DNA from: a virus | Direction: 5' to 3' (one strand) | Length of the DNA: 23,285 bases | Virus record (IMG/VR): IMGVR_UViG_3300021962_000677 | Coordinates: 1 to 23,285 of that record | Part shown: one piece after another, positions 6,501-23,285 of the stretch | Numbering within the stretch: the first letter of the stretch is position 1 | Layout of the letters: each line of letters starts with the position of its first letter | Notes under the pieces: generated by a model | What the model was told of the DNA's origin: nothing | Databases searched by the model: none | The model's input: only the letters and a program-made list of their open reading frames with translations | Program-made: the position numbers and the translations under genes

Positions 6501-8215
6501 TAATTTTTAAAAAGGTTAGATATAAAAATCTATTATCTTCTGGTAATAAATTTACAGAGATACAACTAGACAAACATCAAACAACCTTAATTTTAGGTGA
6601 GAATGGTGCAGGCAAGTCCACATTACTAGATGCAATGTGTTTCGCACTTTATGGTAAAGGGTTTCGTAATCTTAAAAAAGAACTACTCATTAATTCAATC
6701 AATCAAAAAGAACTTCTAGTAGAACTAGAGTTTTCTATTGGCAAAAAAACTTACAAGGTTATTCGTGGTGCAAAACCAAATAGATTTGAGTTATACCTGA
6801 ATAATACTTTAATCAACCAAGATGCAACTATGAGAGACTATCAGGAACATTTAGAGAAGAACATTCTCAAAATGAGTTATAGATCGTTTACTCAGATTGC
6901 TATTTTGGGTTCTGCAAACTTTACACCTTTCATGCAACTTCGTGCTGTAGAAAGAAGAAGACTTGTAGAAGACTTACTAGATATCTCTATCTTTAGTACA
7001 ATGGGAGACATTCTAAAGAAAAGAATTTCTAGTCATAACATTGAAGTGAAAGAAACTAATCATGAAATCGATATTCTGGAAGAAAGAATCAGCGGTCTTA
7101 ATGAACAACTTAATGCACTCCGTGAGAATCGTGAACAGAAACTTAAAAAGTTTGAAGGGACTGTTGATGAAACAAATAAAAACATTGACTCACTCATGGA
7201 GAGAATAAATGAAAAGACGAAAGATGTGGTGGAGAAAAAATCCACTATCAAGGATATCGATCCTCAAAAAGATCGACTTAAACAAGCAGTGGAGTTGGAG
7301 AGAAAACTCTCGGAAAATTATTCTAAAGCACGGAAACAAATAGAGTTTTACCAAACGAATGACGAATGTCCAACATGTAAACAAGGTTTAGATGAAGAAC
7401 ATAAGAAATCTCATATCAAAGAGATTGATGAAAAAGCAATTGAGTTTCAACATGCCATGGAACAAATATCAGAAACGATAAATGAGTCAAGAAGAAGATT
7501 GGAAGAAATTCAACAAGTACAGGATGAAATTGATACAATACAAAAGAAAATTGGTATACTTCAAACTGAGATTGTATCTAATCAAAAGTTCATTCAAAAG
7601 ATTCAGAAAGAAATAGAAGACTTGAAGAATGAACAAAGTGGCAACTCTAATGTACAAGAGAGAATAGATGATAGTGAAGATAAGTTGGATATCTTACATA
7701 AAAAGAAAAAAAACTTAGTTGAACAAGGACACTATTTCGAAATAGGTCAGATGTTACTAAGAGACCAAGGTGTAAAACAAAAGATCATCAAGCAATATGT
7801 TCCTATTATGAATAAGTTGATCAATAAGTATCTTGCATCTTTAGAGTTCTATGTTGGGTTTGAGTTGAATGAAGCATTCGAAGAGACTATCAAATCCAGA
7901 TTCAGAGACGAATTCAAATACGATAACTTCTCACAAGGTGAAAAGATGAGAATCGATCTTGCACTTCTATTCACATGGAGAGCAGTTGCAAGAATGAAGA
8001 ATTCGGTGAATACTAATCTATTGATATTAGACGAAGTGTTTGATTCATCACTTGACACACAAGGTACAGATGACTTCCTAAAACTATTAAACACCTTGAC
8101 AGAAAAAACAAATGCATTTATAATAAGTCATAAAGGAGATGCTCTATATGACAAATTCAATGACACCATCAGATTTGAGAAGTATAAAAACTTTTCTAGG
8201 GTCGCAGAGACATAA
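6497..8215 (+). CDS. 46: Recombination endonuclease ATPase subunit gp46 (Rad50/SbcC-like)
   Basis: A 572-aa SMC-type ATPase (T4 gp46 is about 560 aa). It has Walker A GENGAGKST (34-42), a long charged coiled coil on both sides of the zinc-hook CPTC (291-294), the ABC signature FSQGEK (478-483), Walker B LLILDE (508-513) and an H-loop His near 545 (IISHKGD). It partners gp47 in DNA end processing. The coiled coil is short, as in other phage Rad50 proteins. The stop codon at 8213-8215 lies inside the CATAAATA late promoter of the next unit, so the gp46 gene end doubles as a promoter. Confidence 0.95.
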   Translation: MIIFKKVRYKNLLSSGNKFTEIQLDKHQTTLILGENGAGKSTLLDAMCFALYGKGFRNLKKELLINSINQKELLVELEFSIGKKTYKVIRGAKPNRFELYLNNTLINQDATMRDYQEHLEKNILKMSYRSFTQIAILGSANFTPFMQLRAVERRRLVEDLLDISIFSTMGDILKKRISSHNIEVKETNHEIDILEERISGLNEQLNALRENREQKLKKFEGTVDETNKNIDSLMERINEKTKDVVEKKSTIKDIDPQKDRLKQAVELERKLSENYSKARKQIEFYQTNDECPTCKQGLDEEHKKSHIKEIDEKAIEFQHAMEQISETINESRRRLEEIQQVQDEIDTIQKKIGILQTEIVSNQKFIQKIQKEIEDLKNEQSGNSNVQERIDDSEDKLDILHKKKKNLVEQGHYFEIGQMLLRDQGVKQKIIKQYVPIMNKLINKYLASLEFYVGFELNEAFEETIKSRFRDEFKYDNFSQGEKMRIDLALLFTWRAVARMKNSVNTNLLILDEVFDSSLDTQGTDDFLKLLNTLTEKTNAFIISHKGDALYDKFNDTIRFEKYKNFSRVAET

Positions 8216-8218
8216 ATA
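8211..8218 (+). promoter_or_regulatory. T4-type late promoter (CATAAATA), +1 at the next ATG
   Basis: CATAAATA contains the gp46 stop codon. Using T4 geometry the +1 is 8224, the A of the next gene's ATG, so the late RNA would be leaderless. No Shine-Dalgarno precedes that ATG. Confidence 0.75.
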
Positions 8219-8223
8219 GTACC

Positions 8224-9609
8224 ATGAAAAGTTTTTCAGAGTTCCATAGTATACCAACTAAGTTAGACTTACCAAAGGTTCAACTTCGTGAGCTAACAGT
8301 ATCTCCATACTACACACAAAGAGGTCAAGCAAATCCATACTATGACCTAGATATTAAATTAGATGTAGTACAACAAACAGTAGGTAAAGGTGAGATCAGA
8401 TTCAGAAATGTTGAGAACCCTAGTGGCCAAGAACTCCTATCAATCGGTAATGGAAAGTATTTCTTTCAAATAGAACTAGACGGAAAAGAAACGCCTTACT
8501 ATGTCAGAACAACCAAGTCTGCAGTTAAAAGTCATTTTGGTATGAAACAAAGAAAAAATTCTACTGCCTCATCAAATGTCAACGAACTACTAACTGTATA
8601 CTTTCTCTTGCATACAAATGAATTAAAAATGGATTCTAAAGAATGGGAATTGACAGTTACTAAAAAGAGTGGTGATACAGGTGTTCTACTTGGTGATGGT
8701 GGTAAACTTAGTTATGATCAATTAATATCTTTACTAGATGAAGATGACACTGCTGAAAGAGATATAAAAATTGGTATGTCAAATGCAGTTGCTGTAATAA
8801 AGGATCTTCAAGGTAGTTCTATAAAGAATGTTTATTGGACGCCTAGAGGAAAACCAGGCGGTATAAGTAAGAACAATCCTTCAGATGTAATCGTAGAAAC
8901 TGATGCAGGTTTCATAGGTTATTCTAATAAGATATCTGCTGGAAAAGATATGACTCCTAAAATGAATGCATCTATCGTTGCTCAGTTTGAGAAACTAGGA
9001 GACAGTAGACAAGTTAAAACAATTCAGAAGTTTATAGATGACTCTATAGACTTTGCTATATCTACCATCAAAGACAAGACAGTTAAAAAAGAAGTTGTTG
9101 TCAAGTTTCAATCTGCTTTACATAGAGACAAATACACTGAAGGCGGTTCTAAGAAAAACTTTCATGCACTAGGAATATTGTTTACTAAAAACAATCTTAA
9201 TTTTTATGCAGATGATTTTTACTATCCTTTCAGAAACAATCTCATTTCTCTAGTATCTAATCATTTTAAAACATCTTCGAACTTATTGTACATGTTAAAC
9301 ACAATGGGATACTATACATATCCAGATGCAAACGCTACGCCATGTCCATACAAATTATTAATAGGTTCTGAAAGCAGTTCAACAATCAAAGATGTTGGTT
9401 CAAACGAAGAACTAAAAGCATTGTTTTTAAATAAAGATGCCAGAAAATTGACAGGTATTAAAGTTGACTATACACAAGGTCAACAATCGTTTAGAGTTTC
9501 ATTTACATTCAATAGAAAAAGTTATACATTGCCCATAACACTAAGAACAAGAAGTGCTGGTGGTTGGGCAGGAAAAGCACTATACATGTCATCATCAGGA
9601 ATAATATAA
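8224..9609 (+). CDS. Unknown protein with possible PD-(D/E)XK nuclease-like core (461 aa)
   Basis: A 461-aa soluble protein. A helix with an acidic residue (SSNVNELLTVYFLL, E121) precedes NPSDVIVE (218-225) and, after a turn, GYSNK (232-236). This E...D...(x)...S-x-K order resembles the restriction-endonuclease fold found in several phage proteins, with D221 and K236 as candidate catalytic residues. The remaining parts (N-terminal beta region 20-100, C-terminal region with SFTFNRKSYTLPITLR) are not recognised. The N-terminus (MKSFSEFHSIP) resembles the MKSF-type starts common in T4-like structural genes. It is first behind the late promoter at 8211 and is followed by peptide deformylase, starting at its stop (TAATG). 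Nuclease activity is inference. Confidence 0.55.
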   Translation: MKSFSEFHSIPTKLDLPKVQLRELTVSPYYTQRGQANPYYDLDIKLDVVQQTVGKGEIRFRNVENPSGQELLSIGNGKYFFQIELDGKETPYYVRTTKSAVKSHFGMKQRKNSTASSNVNELLTVYFLLHTNELKMDSKEWELTVTKKSGDTGVLLGDGGKLSYDQLISLLDEDDTAERDIKIGMSNAVAVIKDLQGSSIKNVYWTPRGKPGGISKNNPSDVIVETDAGFIGYSNKISAGKDMTPKMNASIVAQFEKLGDSRQVKTIQKFIDDSIDFAISTIKDKTVKKEVVVKFQSALHRDKYTEGGSKKNFHALGILFTKNNLNFYADDFYYPFRNNLISLVSNHFKTSSNLLYMLNTMGYYTYPDANATPCPYKLLIGSESSSTIKDVGSNEELKALFLNKDARKLTGIKVDYTQGQQSFRVSFTFNRKSYTLPITLRTRSAGGWAGKALYMSSSGII

Positions 9610-19137: not shown

Positions 19138-19165
19138 AAAAGGGGACTTTATGTCCCCTTTTTTT
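19138..19165 (+). terminator. Rho-independent terminator
   Basis: AAAAGGGGAC(19138-19147)-TTTAT-GTCCCCTTTT(19153-19162), a 10-bp perfect stem, with the T-run continuing to 19165. It separates the regA-side genes from the late holin/curli unit and runs directly into a TATAAATA late promoter. Confidence 0.92.
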
Positions 19166-19172
19166 ATAAATA
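19165..19172 (+). promoter_or_regulatory. T4-type late promoter (TATAAATA) of the holin/curli unit
   Basis: A perfect TATAAATA abuts the terminator T-run. Predicted +1 is 19178, two bases before the ATG at 19180, so the transcript would be essentially leaderless. No terminator is evident between here and the window end, so it can drive every gene from 19180 onward. Confidence 0.85.
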
Positions 19173-19179
19173 GTAGTGT

Positions 19180-19476
19180 ATGGAATTTGTATTTGAATTG
19201 ATAACTGAATTGGGGTTTCCAATTGCAATAGCGATGGTCATGGGTTTCTTCATATTCACTATCATTAAACAAATCTTACAAGGTATAGTTGACAACATTC
19301 AGACGCTTACCATGTTCTGTAAGTCATTAGAAAATCGTGCAAGAACTATGTCAAACGAAATGATAAAGATTGACATGTTGGTATCATCTGCATTGGAGTT
19401 GAGACCTGATATCGAAAGAGTTGCTCGAGCAGAGAACTTTATCGAAGACGGTAAACTAGATGTGAGAAGAGATTAA
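19180..19476 (+). CDS. YvrJ/holin-like membrane protein, copy 1 (98 aa)
   Basis: A 98-aa protein with one N-terminal transmembrane helix carrying GFPIAIAMVMGFFIF (residues 12-26), followed by a long helical, coiled-coil-like tail (IVDNIQTLTMFCKSLENRA...). The 'GFPI-x-x-A' box resembles the YvrJ family of small phage/Bacillus membrane proteins, and a holin or holin-partner role is the usual guess. It is the first gene behind the late promoter at 19165. Its stop overlaps the second copy (TAATG). Confidence 0.7.
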   Translation: MEFVFELITELGFPIAIAMVMGFFIFTIIKQILQGIVDNIQTLTMFCKSLENRARTMSNEMIKIDMLVSSALELRPDIERVARAENFIEDGKLDVRRD

Positions 19477-19760
19477 TGGAAGAATTAGATATTGTATCTC
19501 TGGTCTCACAATATGGATTTCCAATTGTTATGGCAGTTGGTCTAGGATACTTTATATACTATGTGTGGTGGTTCATTGGTGAACACATAGAGCCCGAAAT
19601 TGAAAAGATGCATTTTGCATTGATAAGAGTTATAGATCAAACAAGAATGTTAGACCAAGACCTTATCAGACTACAACAAAAAGTAAATGTAGTCCTTGAA
19701 TATAGAGAAAATCAAAAAAAGATGGGCGGTAAAAAAACCAATGAAAAACTTCAAACTTAG
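19476..19760 (+). CDS. YvrJ/holin-like membrane protein, copy 2 (94 aa)
   Basis: A 94-aa protein with the same plan as its upstream neighbour: an N-terminal box YGFPIVMAVGLGYFIYYVWW, then a helical tail (MLDQDLIRLQQKVNVVLEYREN). The shared GFPI box, size and coupled position make it a diverged tandem paralogue. The basic C-terminus (KKMGGKKTNEK) would be cytoplasmic. Its 3' end overlaps csgF by 20 bases, linking the holin-like pair to the curli genes. Confidence 0.7.
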   Translation: MEELDIVSLVSQYGFPIVMAVGLGYFIYYVWWFIGEHIEPEIEKMHFALIRVIDQTRMLDQDLIRLQQKVNVVLEYRENQKKMGGKKTNEKLQT

Positions 19761-20229
19761 TATATTATTATTAGTCGGAACATTACAAGCATCTCCCTTA
19801 GTACACGATTTCAAAAATCCATCCTTTAGTGGAATTGGAACAGGTGCTCACTATCTAACCATTGAGAACCAAGAGTTCTCTCGCAAGAAACAAATTGAAG
19901 ATGCTCTTGAGTCTGCAAGAAAGGCTGCTGAAAGAGAAGAAGAAAATACAACTCTTGCAAAATTTATTCGTAACTTAGAAAGTAGAATCTATGCTCAGTT
20001 TGCAAAACAACTTGTCGAGTCAATGTTTGCAAATGACAACCCAGCAGGATTTGGTTCGTTTGTTTTAGAAGGCAATACAGTTACATGGGAAGTTGTAACA
20101 AGTGAAGATGGTTCAGAATGGATCAAACTTACTGTAGTTGCAGAAGACGGAACATCTACTGAAATAACAATACCTGTTGGTACAGGTAACTTCTCACAAG
20201 ATCCTGATTTGGGTGGCGATGGTGGTTAG
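19741..20229 (+). CDS. csgF: CsgF-like curli assembly factor
   Basis: A 162-aa secreted protein (E. coli CsgF is 138 aa). The frame opens at 19696; the ATG at 19741 gives a good signal peptide (KNFKLSILLLVGTLQAS) with cleavage near residue 18. The mature N-terminus has VHDFKNPSFSG (21-31), matching CsgF's conserved FQFRNPNFGG, the segment that inserts into the CsgG pore. A helical region and a C-terminal beta region (VTWEVVTSEDG...STEITIPVG) follow, as in CsgF. In curli, CsgF couples CsgG to nucleation of fibres outside the cell. It ends inside csgG, giving coupled translation. Confidence 0.85.
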   Translation: MKNFKLSILLLVGTLQASPLVHDFKNPSFSGIGTGAHYLTIENQEFSRKKQIEDALESARKAAEREEENTTLAKFIRNLESRIYAQFAKQLVESMFANDNPAGFGSFVLEGNTVTWEVVTSEDGSEWIKLTVVAEDGTSTEITIPVGTGNFSQDPDLGGDGG

Positions 20230-21133
20230 ATTACTATTAGCACTCACTATATTGATTAGTGGGTGTGCATCAATACCTAGATTCACAAACGATCCACAAG
20301 AATGCAATCCTGCAACTTGGGGACCAGAGTACGACCACGACTTATTAAATTATGCTCGTGCTGCTGGTAGAACATTTGAAAGAGCAATGCCTTTCATATG
20401 TGTAGAGGATCCAGAGGTTGTAAAATTACCAAGTTACATTAATCTTTTACAATTGCCAGCTGCAAAAGAAAAACCGATAGTTGCAGTCTATCAATTTTTA
20501 GATAAGACAGGTCAGAGACAACCTTCAGATAACATTGCAACATTTTCTACTGCAGTTACACAAGGTGGTTCAGAAATGGTTATTGATGCATTGAAAACTG
20601 CTGGTCAAGGTTCTTGGTTTAGAGTAGTTGAAAGAACAGGCATAGACAATCTTGTTAGAGAGAGACAAATCATTCGATCTGCAAGACAAGAATATGCAGA
20701 ATCAACAGGAGAAAATCCGCAAGGTTTACAACCCTTATTGTTCGCAGGTATGATCATAGAGGGTGGTATAATTGGTTATGATGCCAATGTGCAAACAGGT
20801 GGACGAGGCGCACGGACACTTGGTATTGGTATGGCGAGACAGTATAGACAAGATGTTGTTACTGTCAGTATGAGAGCCGTTTCGGTTCTAACAGGTGAAG
20901 TATTATTAAATGTCCAGACACGAAAGACTATATTGAGTTACGGAGGCGGTGGAGATATTTTTAGATTTATCGAAGACGGAACTCAACTTATAGAATTCGA
21001 AGATGGTGTGACAAATAATGAATCGGTGACTTTCGCAGTACGAACTGCCATTGAGGCAGCCGTGCTAGAATTAATCTACCAAGGGCACGATAGAGGCTTT
21101 TGGGTTATAGAGGGGTATAACGAAAATGAATAA
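20219..21133 (+). CDS. csgG: CsgG-like curli secretion channel lipoprotein
   Basis: A 304-aa lipoprotein (E. coli CsgG is 277 aa). Frame opens at 20177, but the ATG at 20219 gives the lipoprotein signal LLLALTILISGC with Cys16 as lipid site. Conserved blocks are clear: VAVYQFLDKTGQ, FSTAVTQGG, WFRVVERTGIDNLVRERQII, IIEGGIIGYDANVQTGG, GARTLGIG, RKTILSYGG, IFRFIEDG and DRGFWV. CsgG forms a nonameric outer-membrane channel that exports curlin. The region between Cys16 and residue 75 is longer than in E. coli and contains C29 and C61, possibly a disulfide. The constriction loop is altered (see finding). It overlaps the curlin-like gene by 8 bases. Confidence 0.95.
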   Translation: MVVRLLLALTILISGCASIPRFTNDPQECNPATWGPEYDHDLLNYARAAGRTFERAMPFICVEDPEVVKLPSYINLLQLPAAKEKPIVAVYQFLDKTGQRQPSDNIATFSTAVTQGGSEMVIDALKTAGQGSWFRVVERTGIDNLVRERQIIRSARQEYAESTGENPQGLQPLLFAGMIIEGGIIGYDANVQTGGRGARTLGIGMARQYRQDVVTVSMRAVSVLTGEVLLNVQTRKTILSYGGGGDIFRFIEDGTQLIEFEDGVTNNESVTFAVRTAIEAAVLELIYQGHDRGFWVIEGYNENE

Positions 21134-21863
21134 ACTAATTAGTTTAATTATATTATTAATGTCGACATCTTTTGTTTTCGCACAAGCCACCGATGATAAC
21201 GAAATAAAGATCACTCAAACTGGTGATACTCTTGCTTTGTACATAGACCAAATAGGTTTTGGAAACAAAGTGGGTGGTAACGATGGTTCTTCTGGAACTT
21301 TGTCTTCAATGACAATCACTGGTGCAAGTTTAAATTTTAATTTAGACTTTTTGGGTGACCAAAACATTTTGTTTGGACCTGTAGTCGCAGATAGTTCAAC
21401 TTATCTAATAGACATAACAGGAGACTCAAACGAGATCGATTGGAACATTGGTTACATCGGATCAGCAGATAGTTCAGATATTAACTTTGATATCACAGGT
21501 GATTCAAACACCTTTGATTTAGATCAAGGTTATGTCGCTAGTGCTGAGAGATTAGATGCAGACTTGATTCTAATCGGTAGTTCAAATATTTTTGACATTG
21601 ATTGGGAAGCAGATGATATAGTTTGGAACTTTGATATAACAGGTGGTTCAAACAATATTAATACGCTTCAAAATGACGGTGCAGGAAGTATCACTTTCAC
21701 ACTTGATGGAGATAGTGCTGATATAGATATCACACAGATATCTGGTACATGTAGTCCTTCAAATGCTTCATGTGCATCACCTAACGGTATCATTGTTTTA
21801 GATGTAACTTCAGATAATGCAGTCATTCAACTTACACAAAAAGATTCGACTAACGATTCTTAA
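21126..21863 (+). CDS. Secreted curlin-like repeat protein
   Basis: A 245-aa protein with GAGGGG upstream and a signal peptide ending FVFA (residue 19), mature start QATDDNEIKITQTGD. About eight imperfect repeats of 22-27 residues follow; the clearest are I/L-x-G-x-S-N steps at ITGDSN (97-102), ITGDSN (123-128), IGSSN (150-154) and ITGGSN (171-176), each followed by alternating hydrophobic residues. This is the stacked beta-solenoid pattern of curlin, but with Asp/Ser richer and Gln/Asn poorer than E. coli CsgA. Position right after csgG supports a secreted CsgA/CsgB-like fibre subunit. Two cysteines (209, 216) near the C-terminus are unusual. Confidence 0.72.
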   Translation: MNKLISLIILLMSTSFVFAQATDDNEIKITQTGDTLALYIDQIGFGNKVGGNDGSSGTLSSMTITGASLNFNLDFLGDQNILFGPVVADSSTYLIDITGDSNEIDWNIGYIGSADSSDINFDITGDSNTFDLDQGYVASAERLDADLILIGSSNIFDIDWEADDIVWNFDITGGSNNINTLQNDGAGSITFTLDGDSADIDITQISGTCSPSNASCASPNGIIVLDVTSDNAVIQLTQKDSTNDS

Positions 21864-22965
21864 TATTTTGTTGATCGGTGGGGTTGTTTATGGCAACCCC
21901 ATTGGTGACATTGTAGAATCTACTGGCATTGGAACTATCACTCGAAATGCAGAGAATGTGGGTAACAATGTCGGTCTAGATATACTTCTCAATGACGAAG
22001 CGAGAACTGGCGCAGGCCGAATGAAAATCGTCTTCTTAGATAATGAAGTACTTGACATGACAGAAAATACATACGCTTATATTGACGAAGCGTATTACGA
22101 TCCTAATCCAGACTTATCAAAAATGTCAATACGAATGGTGCAAGGAACAGCACGATTCACCTCAGGTGCAGGTTTACGAATCAACAAAGCAAATGTAGAT
22201 GTATCGACACCTACTGCTAACATTACTATCAAGGGAACCGATTTCACAACAACTATAGATGAAATAGGAAGATCACTCATCATACTTCTGCCAGATGCAA
22301 ATGGAGAATCATCAGGAATAATTGAAGTAAATAATAATGGTGGCACAATCACACTAGATCAAGCATATCAGGCAACCATGGTATCATCATTTGATACACC
22401 ACCAACTGTACCAGTTACAGTAAACAATATAACACCTTCTATGATTGACAACATGTTCATTGTCAACCCACCTTCAGAAGTGAGACAGGCAATAGAAGAT
22501 CAAGCAAGAAACGATTTAGATTCAGATCAAGGCATACTTGATGTTGACTTCTTAGAGTTCAACGAACTAGAACAAGATGCACTTGCAGATTCGGAAGAAA
22601 ATTTAGAGTTCTCAGAACTAGACATAGACATGTTAGGTGTTGATTTTCTTACAGACTTATTAGATGTAGTAGAAGAACTTACGAAGACTACAGTGACACT
22701 AGGAGACACTCAGAGTGGTGCAGGCAATGTAGGAACAGTTACCCTTGAAGGTGCATCAATAGGGTTCAACCAAGACTCTCAGTATAACATATTTGTACAA
22801 GATGGTGATTTGTACTTCTATAGAAACATCAATGGTGTTATTGAAATCATCATTACAGGAGACAGTTCAGGTTCATTATCAACAAATGTCGAGGGTTATT
22901 CAGGTATCATTAAGTTCGGTACTGGCGACCCCACAATCAATATAGTAATCAATCAATCTAACTAA
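21817..22965 (+). CDS. Secreted FecR-domain protein
   Basis: A 382-aa protein whose start overlaps the curlin-like gene by 47 bases; the ATG at 21817 gives a full signal peptide (HKKIRLTILNILLIGGVVYG, cleavage near 26). Residues 45-155 fit the FecR domain: a TGAG step (64-67), LDNEVLDM, a VQGTARF strand, and TPTANITIKGTDF (131-143). The middle (200-280) is acidic and helical, and the last 90 residues are beta-rich with Gly/Ser. Classical FecR is an inner-membrane signal protein; here the domain is secreted with no membrane anchor. It may be a fibre cap, scaffold or surface ligand. It is not part of the E. coli curli set. Confidence 0.75.
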   Translation: MQSFNLHKKIRLTILNILLIGGVVYGNPIGDIVESTGIGTITRNAENVGNNVGLDILLNDEARTGAGRMKIVFLDNEVLDMTENTYAYIDEAYYDPNPDLSKMSIRMVQGTARFTSGAGLRINKANVDVSTPTANITIKGTDFTTTIDEIGRSLIILLPDANGESSGIIEVNNNGGTITLDQAYQATMVSSFDTPPTVPVTVNNITPSMIDNMFIVNPPSEVRQAIEDQARNDLDSDQGILDVDFLEFNELEQDALADSEENLEFSELDIDMLGVDFLTDLLDVVEELTKTTVTLGDTQSGAGNVGTVTLEGASIGFNQDSQYNIFVQDGDLYFYRNINGVIEIIITGDSSGSLSTNVEGYSGIIKFGTGDPTINIVINQSN

Positions 22966-22968
22966 ATA
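22961..22968 (+). promoter_or_regulatory. Variant late promoter (ACTAAATA) within the FecR gene stop
   Basis: The same ACTAAATA variant as at 102. Predicted +1 is 22974, leaving a 13-base leader that begins at the GGAGG Shine-Dalgarno of the next gene. No hairpin follows. It would give the second curlin-like gene an extra late supply. Confidence 0.35.
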
Positions 22969-22986
22969 CCACATGGAGGTAATTTT

Positions 22987-23133
22987 ATGAATTATTTACA
23001 CAAACTCATTGATTGGCATCGAGGCAAACTATACAACTTTGAAAAAAGTTTGGGTCTTGATTCTTATCATATGATGTGGTTGGCATTCTTAGAGGGTGTC
23101 GTTTTAGTATTATTACTTCAATGGATTTTTTAA
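22987..23133 (+). CDS. Small membrane protein in the curli cassette (48 aa)
   Basis: A 48-codon ORF with GGAGG seven bases before the ATG. A polar N-terminus (NYLHKLIDWHRGKLYNFEKS) is followed by one transmembrane helix (MMWLAFLEGVVLVLLLQWIF). It lies between the FecR-domain gene and the second curlin-like gene and overlaps the latter by 13 bases. It may help curlin cross or cluster at the inner membrane, but there is no direct evidence. The family is not recognised. Confidence 0.7.
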   Translation: MNYLHKLIDWHRGKLYNFEKSLGLDSYHMMWLAFLEGVVLVLLLQWIF

Positions 23134-23285
23134 ATAAAAAATCAAACAAAGATAGTCCACTCTTATTAATAGGGTGGGCTATCCTCTTATCTTATTGTGG
23201 TCTTGTTTTTGCAGACGACAATGTAATCAACATTCAAACACCAACTGCATCTGATAATCTAGACCTTACAGTTGAACAACAGGGG
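23121..23285 (+). CDS. Second curlin-like secreted protein (5' part only)
   Basis: An ATG at 23121, inside the end of the previous gene, opens a frame that runs off the window (55 codons). An N-terminal polar stretch (DFLNKKSNKDSP) leads to a signal peptide (LLLIGWAILLSYCGLVFA) and a mature start DDNVINIQTPTASDNLDLTV followed by EQQG. The VINIQ / LTVEQQG spacing looks like the alternating hydrophobic and Gln/Asn steps of curlin repeats, and closer to classical CsgA/CsgB than the gene at 21126. It is cut off by the window end, so the assignment is tentative. Confidence 0.6.
   Translation, partial: MDFLNKKSNKDSPLLLIGWAILLSYCGLVFADDNVINIQTPTASDNLDLTVEQQG

Follow-up and report, generated by a model that had tools for sequence, protein, structure and literature searches.

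The window analysed here is the whole of a 23,285-nt fragment of a marine virus (IMG/VR record IMGVR_UViG_3300021962_000677, positions 1-23,285), and it encodes a tail tube protein, a UvsW-like helicase, the late sigma factor gp55, a gp46/gp47-like nuclease, the clamp gp45, a clamp loader and RegA, a gene content which bears out the T4-like genome proposed in a first-pass annotation. Downstream of RegA a run of overlapping genes occupies positions 19165-23285 (Table 1), and the gene positions given in that annotation were all confirmed, except that the CsgG start was corrected to the ATG at 20219 as the most likely initiation codon. Judged from sequence comparison, this block is very probably a phage-borne curli-type (type VIII) export operon of the alphaproteobacterial kind, expressed late from one T4-type promoter.

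Table 1. Features of the curli block in the window
Feature	Position	Strand	Basis and remarks
Intrinsic-terminator-like hairpin and T-run	19142..19164	+	GGGGACTTTATGTCCCC followed by a T-run; closes the upstream genes and runs into the promoter
T4-type late promoter TATAAATA	19165..19172	+	7 nt before the start codon
TM1, 98 aa, one N-terminal membrane segment	19180..19476	+	phrog_18771 1.7e-25; conserved first gene of the block
TM2, 94-aa paralogue of TM1	19476..19760	+	phrog_18771 2.1e-26
CsgF, signal-peptide-like start followed by FKNPSFSG segment	19741..20229	+	Pfam CsgF 1.5e-11; family alignment
CsgG outer-membrane lipoprotein pore	20219..21133	+	Pfam 3.6e-53; aligned to E. coli CsgG 4uv2
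Cur1, secreted curlin-repeat protein, 245 aa	21126..21863	+	Pfam Curlin_rpt 7e-5
Secreted FecR-domain protein, 382 aa, without anti-sigma domain	21817..22965	+	Pfam FecR 8.1e-8
sTM3, 48 aa, one membrane segment	22987..23133	+	found in 35 loci, less than half of relatives
Cur2, start of second secreted curlin-like gene	23121..23285	+	cut by contig end; position conserved in relatives

Components of the curli block

Profile searches uphold the first-pass assignment of csgF and csgG (Table 1). CsgF scores 45 bits against a Pfam cut-off of 25.8 and possesses the N-terminal CsgG-binding segment of a curli system; the FKNPSFSG segment that follows its signal peptide is kept in nearly all relatives in the family alignment, and the match to the solved E. 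coli CsgF is weak (E 0.3) and confined to the N-terminal end. CsgG aligns with E. coli CsgG (4uv2) over 68-299 with an E value of 2.8e-50, a stretch which, with the membrane hairpins placed where we take them to lie in the E. coli protein, spans both barrel hairpins. The phage protein combines the lipobox (LISGC) and both barrel hairpins of a curli pore with approximately 50 extra N-terminal residues. Its likeness to the holdfast anchoring protein HfaB, a CsgG relative, is weak (HfaB-type profile NF037935, 4.7e-8, far below the curated cut-off), and CsgG represents the better match. A CsgG match labelled 'Salmonella phage' was set aside as this is a 1.5-kb unannotated assembly fragment. For the gate protein CsgE, which the first-pass annotation had recommended looking for, no match over cut-off was obtained in six large related phage records. 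A gateless pore in SAR11 hosts, which live on scarce nutrients, could be pictured as a route for nutrient or cofactor uptake during infection, as suggested in PMC7029224 and by Wittmers et al. (PMC9599517); however, the late promoter, the conserved set of secreted substrates and the lack of a transporter in the operon stand against such a function, which we consider very improbable.

The two curlin-like proteins recognised in the first-pass annotation also withstood comparison with their families. The score of Cur1 is marginal (23.1 bits against a Pfam Curlin_rpt cut-off of 20.7), curlin repeats match in 33 of 33 relatives, and the score for three of its seven internal repeat units was reached by none of 1000 shuffles. 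The AlphaFold model of Cur1 is mostly beta with a pLDDT of 73 and gave no significant match to solved structures (best E 0.2), and can be taken neither to prove nor to refute a curlin fold. For Cur2, curlin repeats are present in 15 of the 20 complete relatives and the family profile matches the E. coli CsgA structure 8enq (E=0.001); secreted subunits with curlin repeats are thus represented both by Cur1, above the Pfam cut-off, and by the Cur2 family. Variation is greater in Cur2 than in the other genes of the block, a possible sign that it binds diverse surfaces.

The secreted FecR-domain protein, likewise noted at the outset, retains the FecR periplasmic domain and opens with a signal-peptide-like segment shortly before it; in fold comparison it matched FecR/PupR periplasmic domains together with an anti-sigma factor (E about 3e-4), the next match being a cell-surface anchoring domain. 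Neither an N-terminal cytoplasmic anti-sigma domain nor a central transmembrane segment was found by Pfam search, and the label of a classical FecR iron regulator was rejected owing to the signal-peptide-like start and the absence of the anti-sigma half. In relatives the block is followed by a gene for a CHASE2-type adenylate/guanylate cyclase, which is present in 41 of the 42 loci with 1 kb or more of sequence past Cur2. A secreted FecR-domain protein also adjoins a CHASE2 sensor in a Burkholderia biofilm operon (PMC5192318), and of 17 FecR neighbourhoods examined in Alphaproteobacteria 6 contain a CHASE2-cyclase-like gene, none with CsgG or CsgF; both observations support FecR and CHASE2 as a recurring pair, and the two may be functionally coupled. 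In Alphaproteobacteria other than Hyphomonadaceae FecR-domain relatives often lie within long open frames of up to ~6900 aa. In approximately 30 loci the 3' end of the cyclase gene is shared with a further conserved frame that has a signal-peptide-like start (DUF5658-like; L016:11266-11871) and represents a candidate gene.

Across the genomes examined the TM1/TM2 position is occupied by phrog_18771-type proteins of about 83-115 aa. No kinase (HisKA, HATPase_c) or other domain was found among 30 members of this family, and the 'histidine kinase' label for the genes preceding csgF was rejected for these proteins of 94-98 aa, a correction that covers the myovirus-type sequences examined here, the podovirus sequences of Wittmers et al. 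being outside the comparison. Where the first-pass annotation had placed two holin-like proteins, two small paralogous membrane proteins are indeed encoded, with the holin designation proving weak (phrog_4898 matches 17 residues of TM2 at E 0.0019 and TM1 at E 0.16; YvrJ below cut-off in the family). A radical SAM gene lies between TM2 and CsgF in seven loci (L007, L009, L010, L011, L012, L059 and L060; e.g. L007:4730-5572).

Conservation among phages and a bacterial counterpart

A scan of IMG/VR identified 357 stretches encoding relatives of the phage CsgG, and in all of the best 80 of these 357, which were analysed, the order TM1-TM2-CsgF-CsgG-Cur1-FecR-(48-aa gene)-Cur2 is observed, being broken only at contig ends, and neither curlin gene is missing where the contig is long enough to include it. 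Comparison with close relatives gave dN/dS values of 0.03-0.25 for TM1, TM2, CsgF, CsgG, Cur1 and FecR, indicative of purifying selection; Cur2, incomplete in the window, lies outside this set. The substrate Cur1 (0.09-0.14) is as constrained as the CsgG pore (0.07-0.15), which argues against a pore-only role. In approximately 20 loci phage genes for IscU-like and IscA-like iron-sulphur proteins are located just upstream or downstream of the block (e.g. L052:1297-2023).

Contrary to the suggestion in the first-pass annotation, the complete cassette had already been described. Wittmers et al. 2022 (PMC9599517) describe a curli/T8SS cassette, HK-CsgF-CsgG-CsgA/B-FecR-CsgA/B-cyclase, in pelagiphages of two families (podovirus and myovirus), report its expression in ocean metatranscriptomes and liken it to alphaproteobacterial curli modules without CsgE. 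Earlier reports of csgF and csgG in such phages exist (PMC7029224; PMC9004378), and the GenBank record of Methylophilales phage Melnitz (MZ577097) annotates the block. The Wittmers cassette and the window have their gene order in common (one or two small genes, CsgF, CsgG, CsgA/B, FecR, CsgA/B and cyclase); however, its 'histidine kinase' sits at the position of TM1/TM2, here without a kinase domain, its 'iron-dependent FecR regulator' sits where a secreted protein without the anti-sigma half stands here, and the late promoter and the 48-aa gene are features absent from the account of the cassette in the passages of that paper considered here. What is new is therefore the correction of labels, the bacterial counterpart, and the promoter and leaderless details. 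Beyond the metatranscriptomes of Wittmers et al., no wet-lab timing, virion proteome or transcript data on the operon were found in the literature searched, and Pelagibacter phage HTVC008M does not figure in a pelagiphage transcriptome paper of 2025.

Both Melnitz and HTVC008M (KC465899) carry the whole block, including the two TM genes, the curlins, FecR and the CHASE2-cyclase; their CsgG is ~50% identical to that of the window and their Cur2 is longer, that of HTVC008M having a PA14 domain ahead of the curlin repeats (L082:10462-11787). With the E. coli curli system (csgBAC-csgDEFG) the phage block shares the CsgG pore, CsgF and secreted curlin-repeat proteins, and it differs in that no CsgE was found, in the additional FecR-domain protein and CHASE2-cyclase, and in a CsgF that is only weakly similar outside the N-terminus.

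The bacterial counterpart is a chromosomal operon of Hyphomonas sp. TMED17 (L093), in which CsgF-CsgG-curlin-FecR-CHASE2-cyclase follow the phage order, but which lacks TM1/TM2 and specifies one curlin-like protein of 504 aa. It is located on a 705-kb contig of a metagenome-assembled genome, and the flanking genes are metabolic-looking. The Hyphomonas CsgG groups within the phage CsgG clade (support 100/99) on a long branch, in a tree that gives no direction of transfer, and a close FecR-type gene was present in 1 of 105 Hyphomonadaceae genomes, indicating that the bacterial operon is rare in this family. Contigs with the phage-type block, TM1/TM2 included, have also been binned as Planctomycetaceae, Synechococcus, Sphingobacteriales, Rhodobacteraceae and others (L085-L091, L092, L094 and L111), and these probably represent viral contamination of assemblies.

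Buchholz et al. (PMC9004378) put forward a lysis role for Melnitz, and it may be envisaged that CsgG-CsgF act as a pinholin- or secretin-like device which, as infection ends, opens the outer membrane or depolarises the cell, TM1/TM2 acting in the inner membrane and the secreted proteins being passengers. TM1 and TM2 would suit this role, being short single-TM proteins with a weakly holin-like N-terminus that occur in nearly every phage locus and not in the Hyphomonas operon, as would the absence of a detectable CsgE in the six large records and the T4-type lysozyme gene that in 26 loci precedes TM1 by 0.4-2.2 kb (e.g. L047:3750-4187), although no lysozyme is nearby in the window or in most other loci. 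The Melnitz paper, moreover, stated the curlins to be missing (PMC9004378), contrary to its own GenBank record, which annotates two. The two curlin genes and FecR are retained throughout, with Cur1 and FecR under strong purifying selection, and since kept substrates under such selection speak against a pore for lysis or uptake alone, we regard a lysis device as unlikely.

The late promoter and translation start

In the window TATAAATA occurs three times against an expected 2.45, which is not above chance alone, and the late promoter placed at 19165 in the first-pass annotation was substantiated by comparison, not by the motif alone. NATAAATA is present in 44 of 59 distinct upstream regions of relatives, with a modal gap of exactly 5 nt to the start codon, as compared to 1.6% of random 70-mers from the same loci, and it is this recurrence at a fixed short spacing that renders TATAAATA at 19165 convincing. 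As with T4 late promoters, the motif lies upstream of a gene, with gp55 and gp45 encoded on the same contig. The hairpin preceding it was read directly from the sequence and was not listed by a generic terminator scan, and a similar terminator-like hairpin is found upstream of the block in many relatives. In most promoter-less loci the end of another gene directly precedes TM1, and this gene often follows a T4-type lysozyme. Late expression would also suit curlin-like and FecR proteins that belong to the virion or tail and are produced together with the late structural proteins, and the HTVC008M block has tail and baseplate genes as neighbours; the signal peptides, and an export pore dedicated to the outer membrane, nevertheless point outward from the cell, and the Hyphomonas counterpart resides in a chromosome among metabolic-looking genes, leaving a virion role quite unlikely, more so than a lysis device.

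The 8-bp late box of T4 occupies the -10 position, roughly one turn of the helix ahead of where transcription begins (PMC2988020), and with a gap of 5 nt the mRNA would thereby begin at the start codon or immediately beside it; the gap at 19165 in the window is 7 nt. In six large related records of pelagimyophage type (L082, L083, L067, L050, L046 and L065) a 5-nt gap was observed in 42 of 111 ATAAATA-N(2-14)-ATG matches (p ~6e-19 against even spacing), as compared to 7 of 48 in T4 and three cyanophages. ATAAATA-to-ATG sites in the window lie at 19165-19180 and 8211-8224. The fixed promoter-to-start spacing suggests that the curli operon mRNA is probably leaderless, and this spacing is testable by a single transcript-mapping experiment. 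bS21 is encoded in five of the six large records and in none of the four comparison phages. As a speculative and, in our view, doubtful extension, these phages may begin late genes, the curli operon included, from leaderless mRNAs to which bS21 may tune host ribosomes, and the operon would then constitute a surface circuit driven by the phage, with FecR and the CHASE2-cyclase sensing the export of fibres.

Probable export of curlin-like proteins before lysis

The explanation we favour is that infection makes the cell export curlin-like proteins before it lyses, to which, as a whole and on sequence grounds, we assign a probability of roughly 0.65. Late in infection CsgG and CsgF would form an outer-membrane channel by which Cur1 and Cur2 would reach the cell surface, there to make up curli-like material; more tentatively, the FecR-domain protein, in the periplasm or at the surface, might act as an anchor or gauge of export, and the CHASE2 domain might sense this gauge and raise cAMP. 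This export reading draws on the domain matches, the CsgG alignment, the fixed gene order, the kept curlins, the conserved promoter and the Hyphomonas counterpart. Genuine export of the curlin-like proteins is probable, their assembly into amyloid fibres has somewhat less than an even chance, and any one named benefit is at best a doubtful proposition; the benefit would most likely lie outside the still-intact cell, with neighbouring hosts held close or other phages kept off.

Against export are the lack of a CsgE match in the six records, the best structural match of Cur1 at E 0.2, its marginal curlin score and the lack of clumping in Melnitz cultures reported by Buchholz et al. (PMC9004378), and late timing would leave little time before lysis. 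As regards the interpretation of the first-pass annotation, there is good support for a late co-transcribed curli-type cassette that comprises a pore, a chaperone and two curlin-repeat proteins, both secreted; its novelty did not hold, and the holin label is weak.

SAR11 and OM43 are abundant marine bacteria, and those studied as hosts, to our knowledge, lack a curli system; with SAR11 lacking such a system, the compatibility of the phage proteins with its Sec/Lol export is assumed, a further point against the export reading. Correction of the 'kinase' and 'iron regulator' labels alters which experiments make sense, and the Hyphomonas operon provides a bacterial counterpart for studying the module. 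If these hosts do export virus-made curli-like material, infected cells would gain a new surface property.
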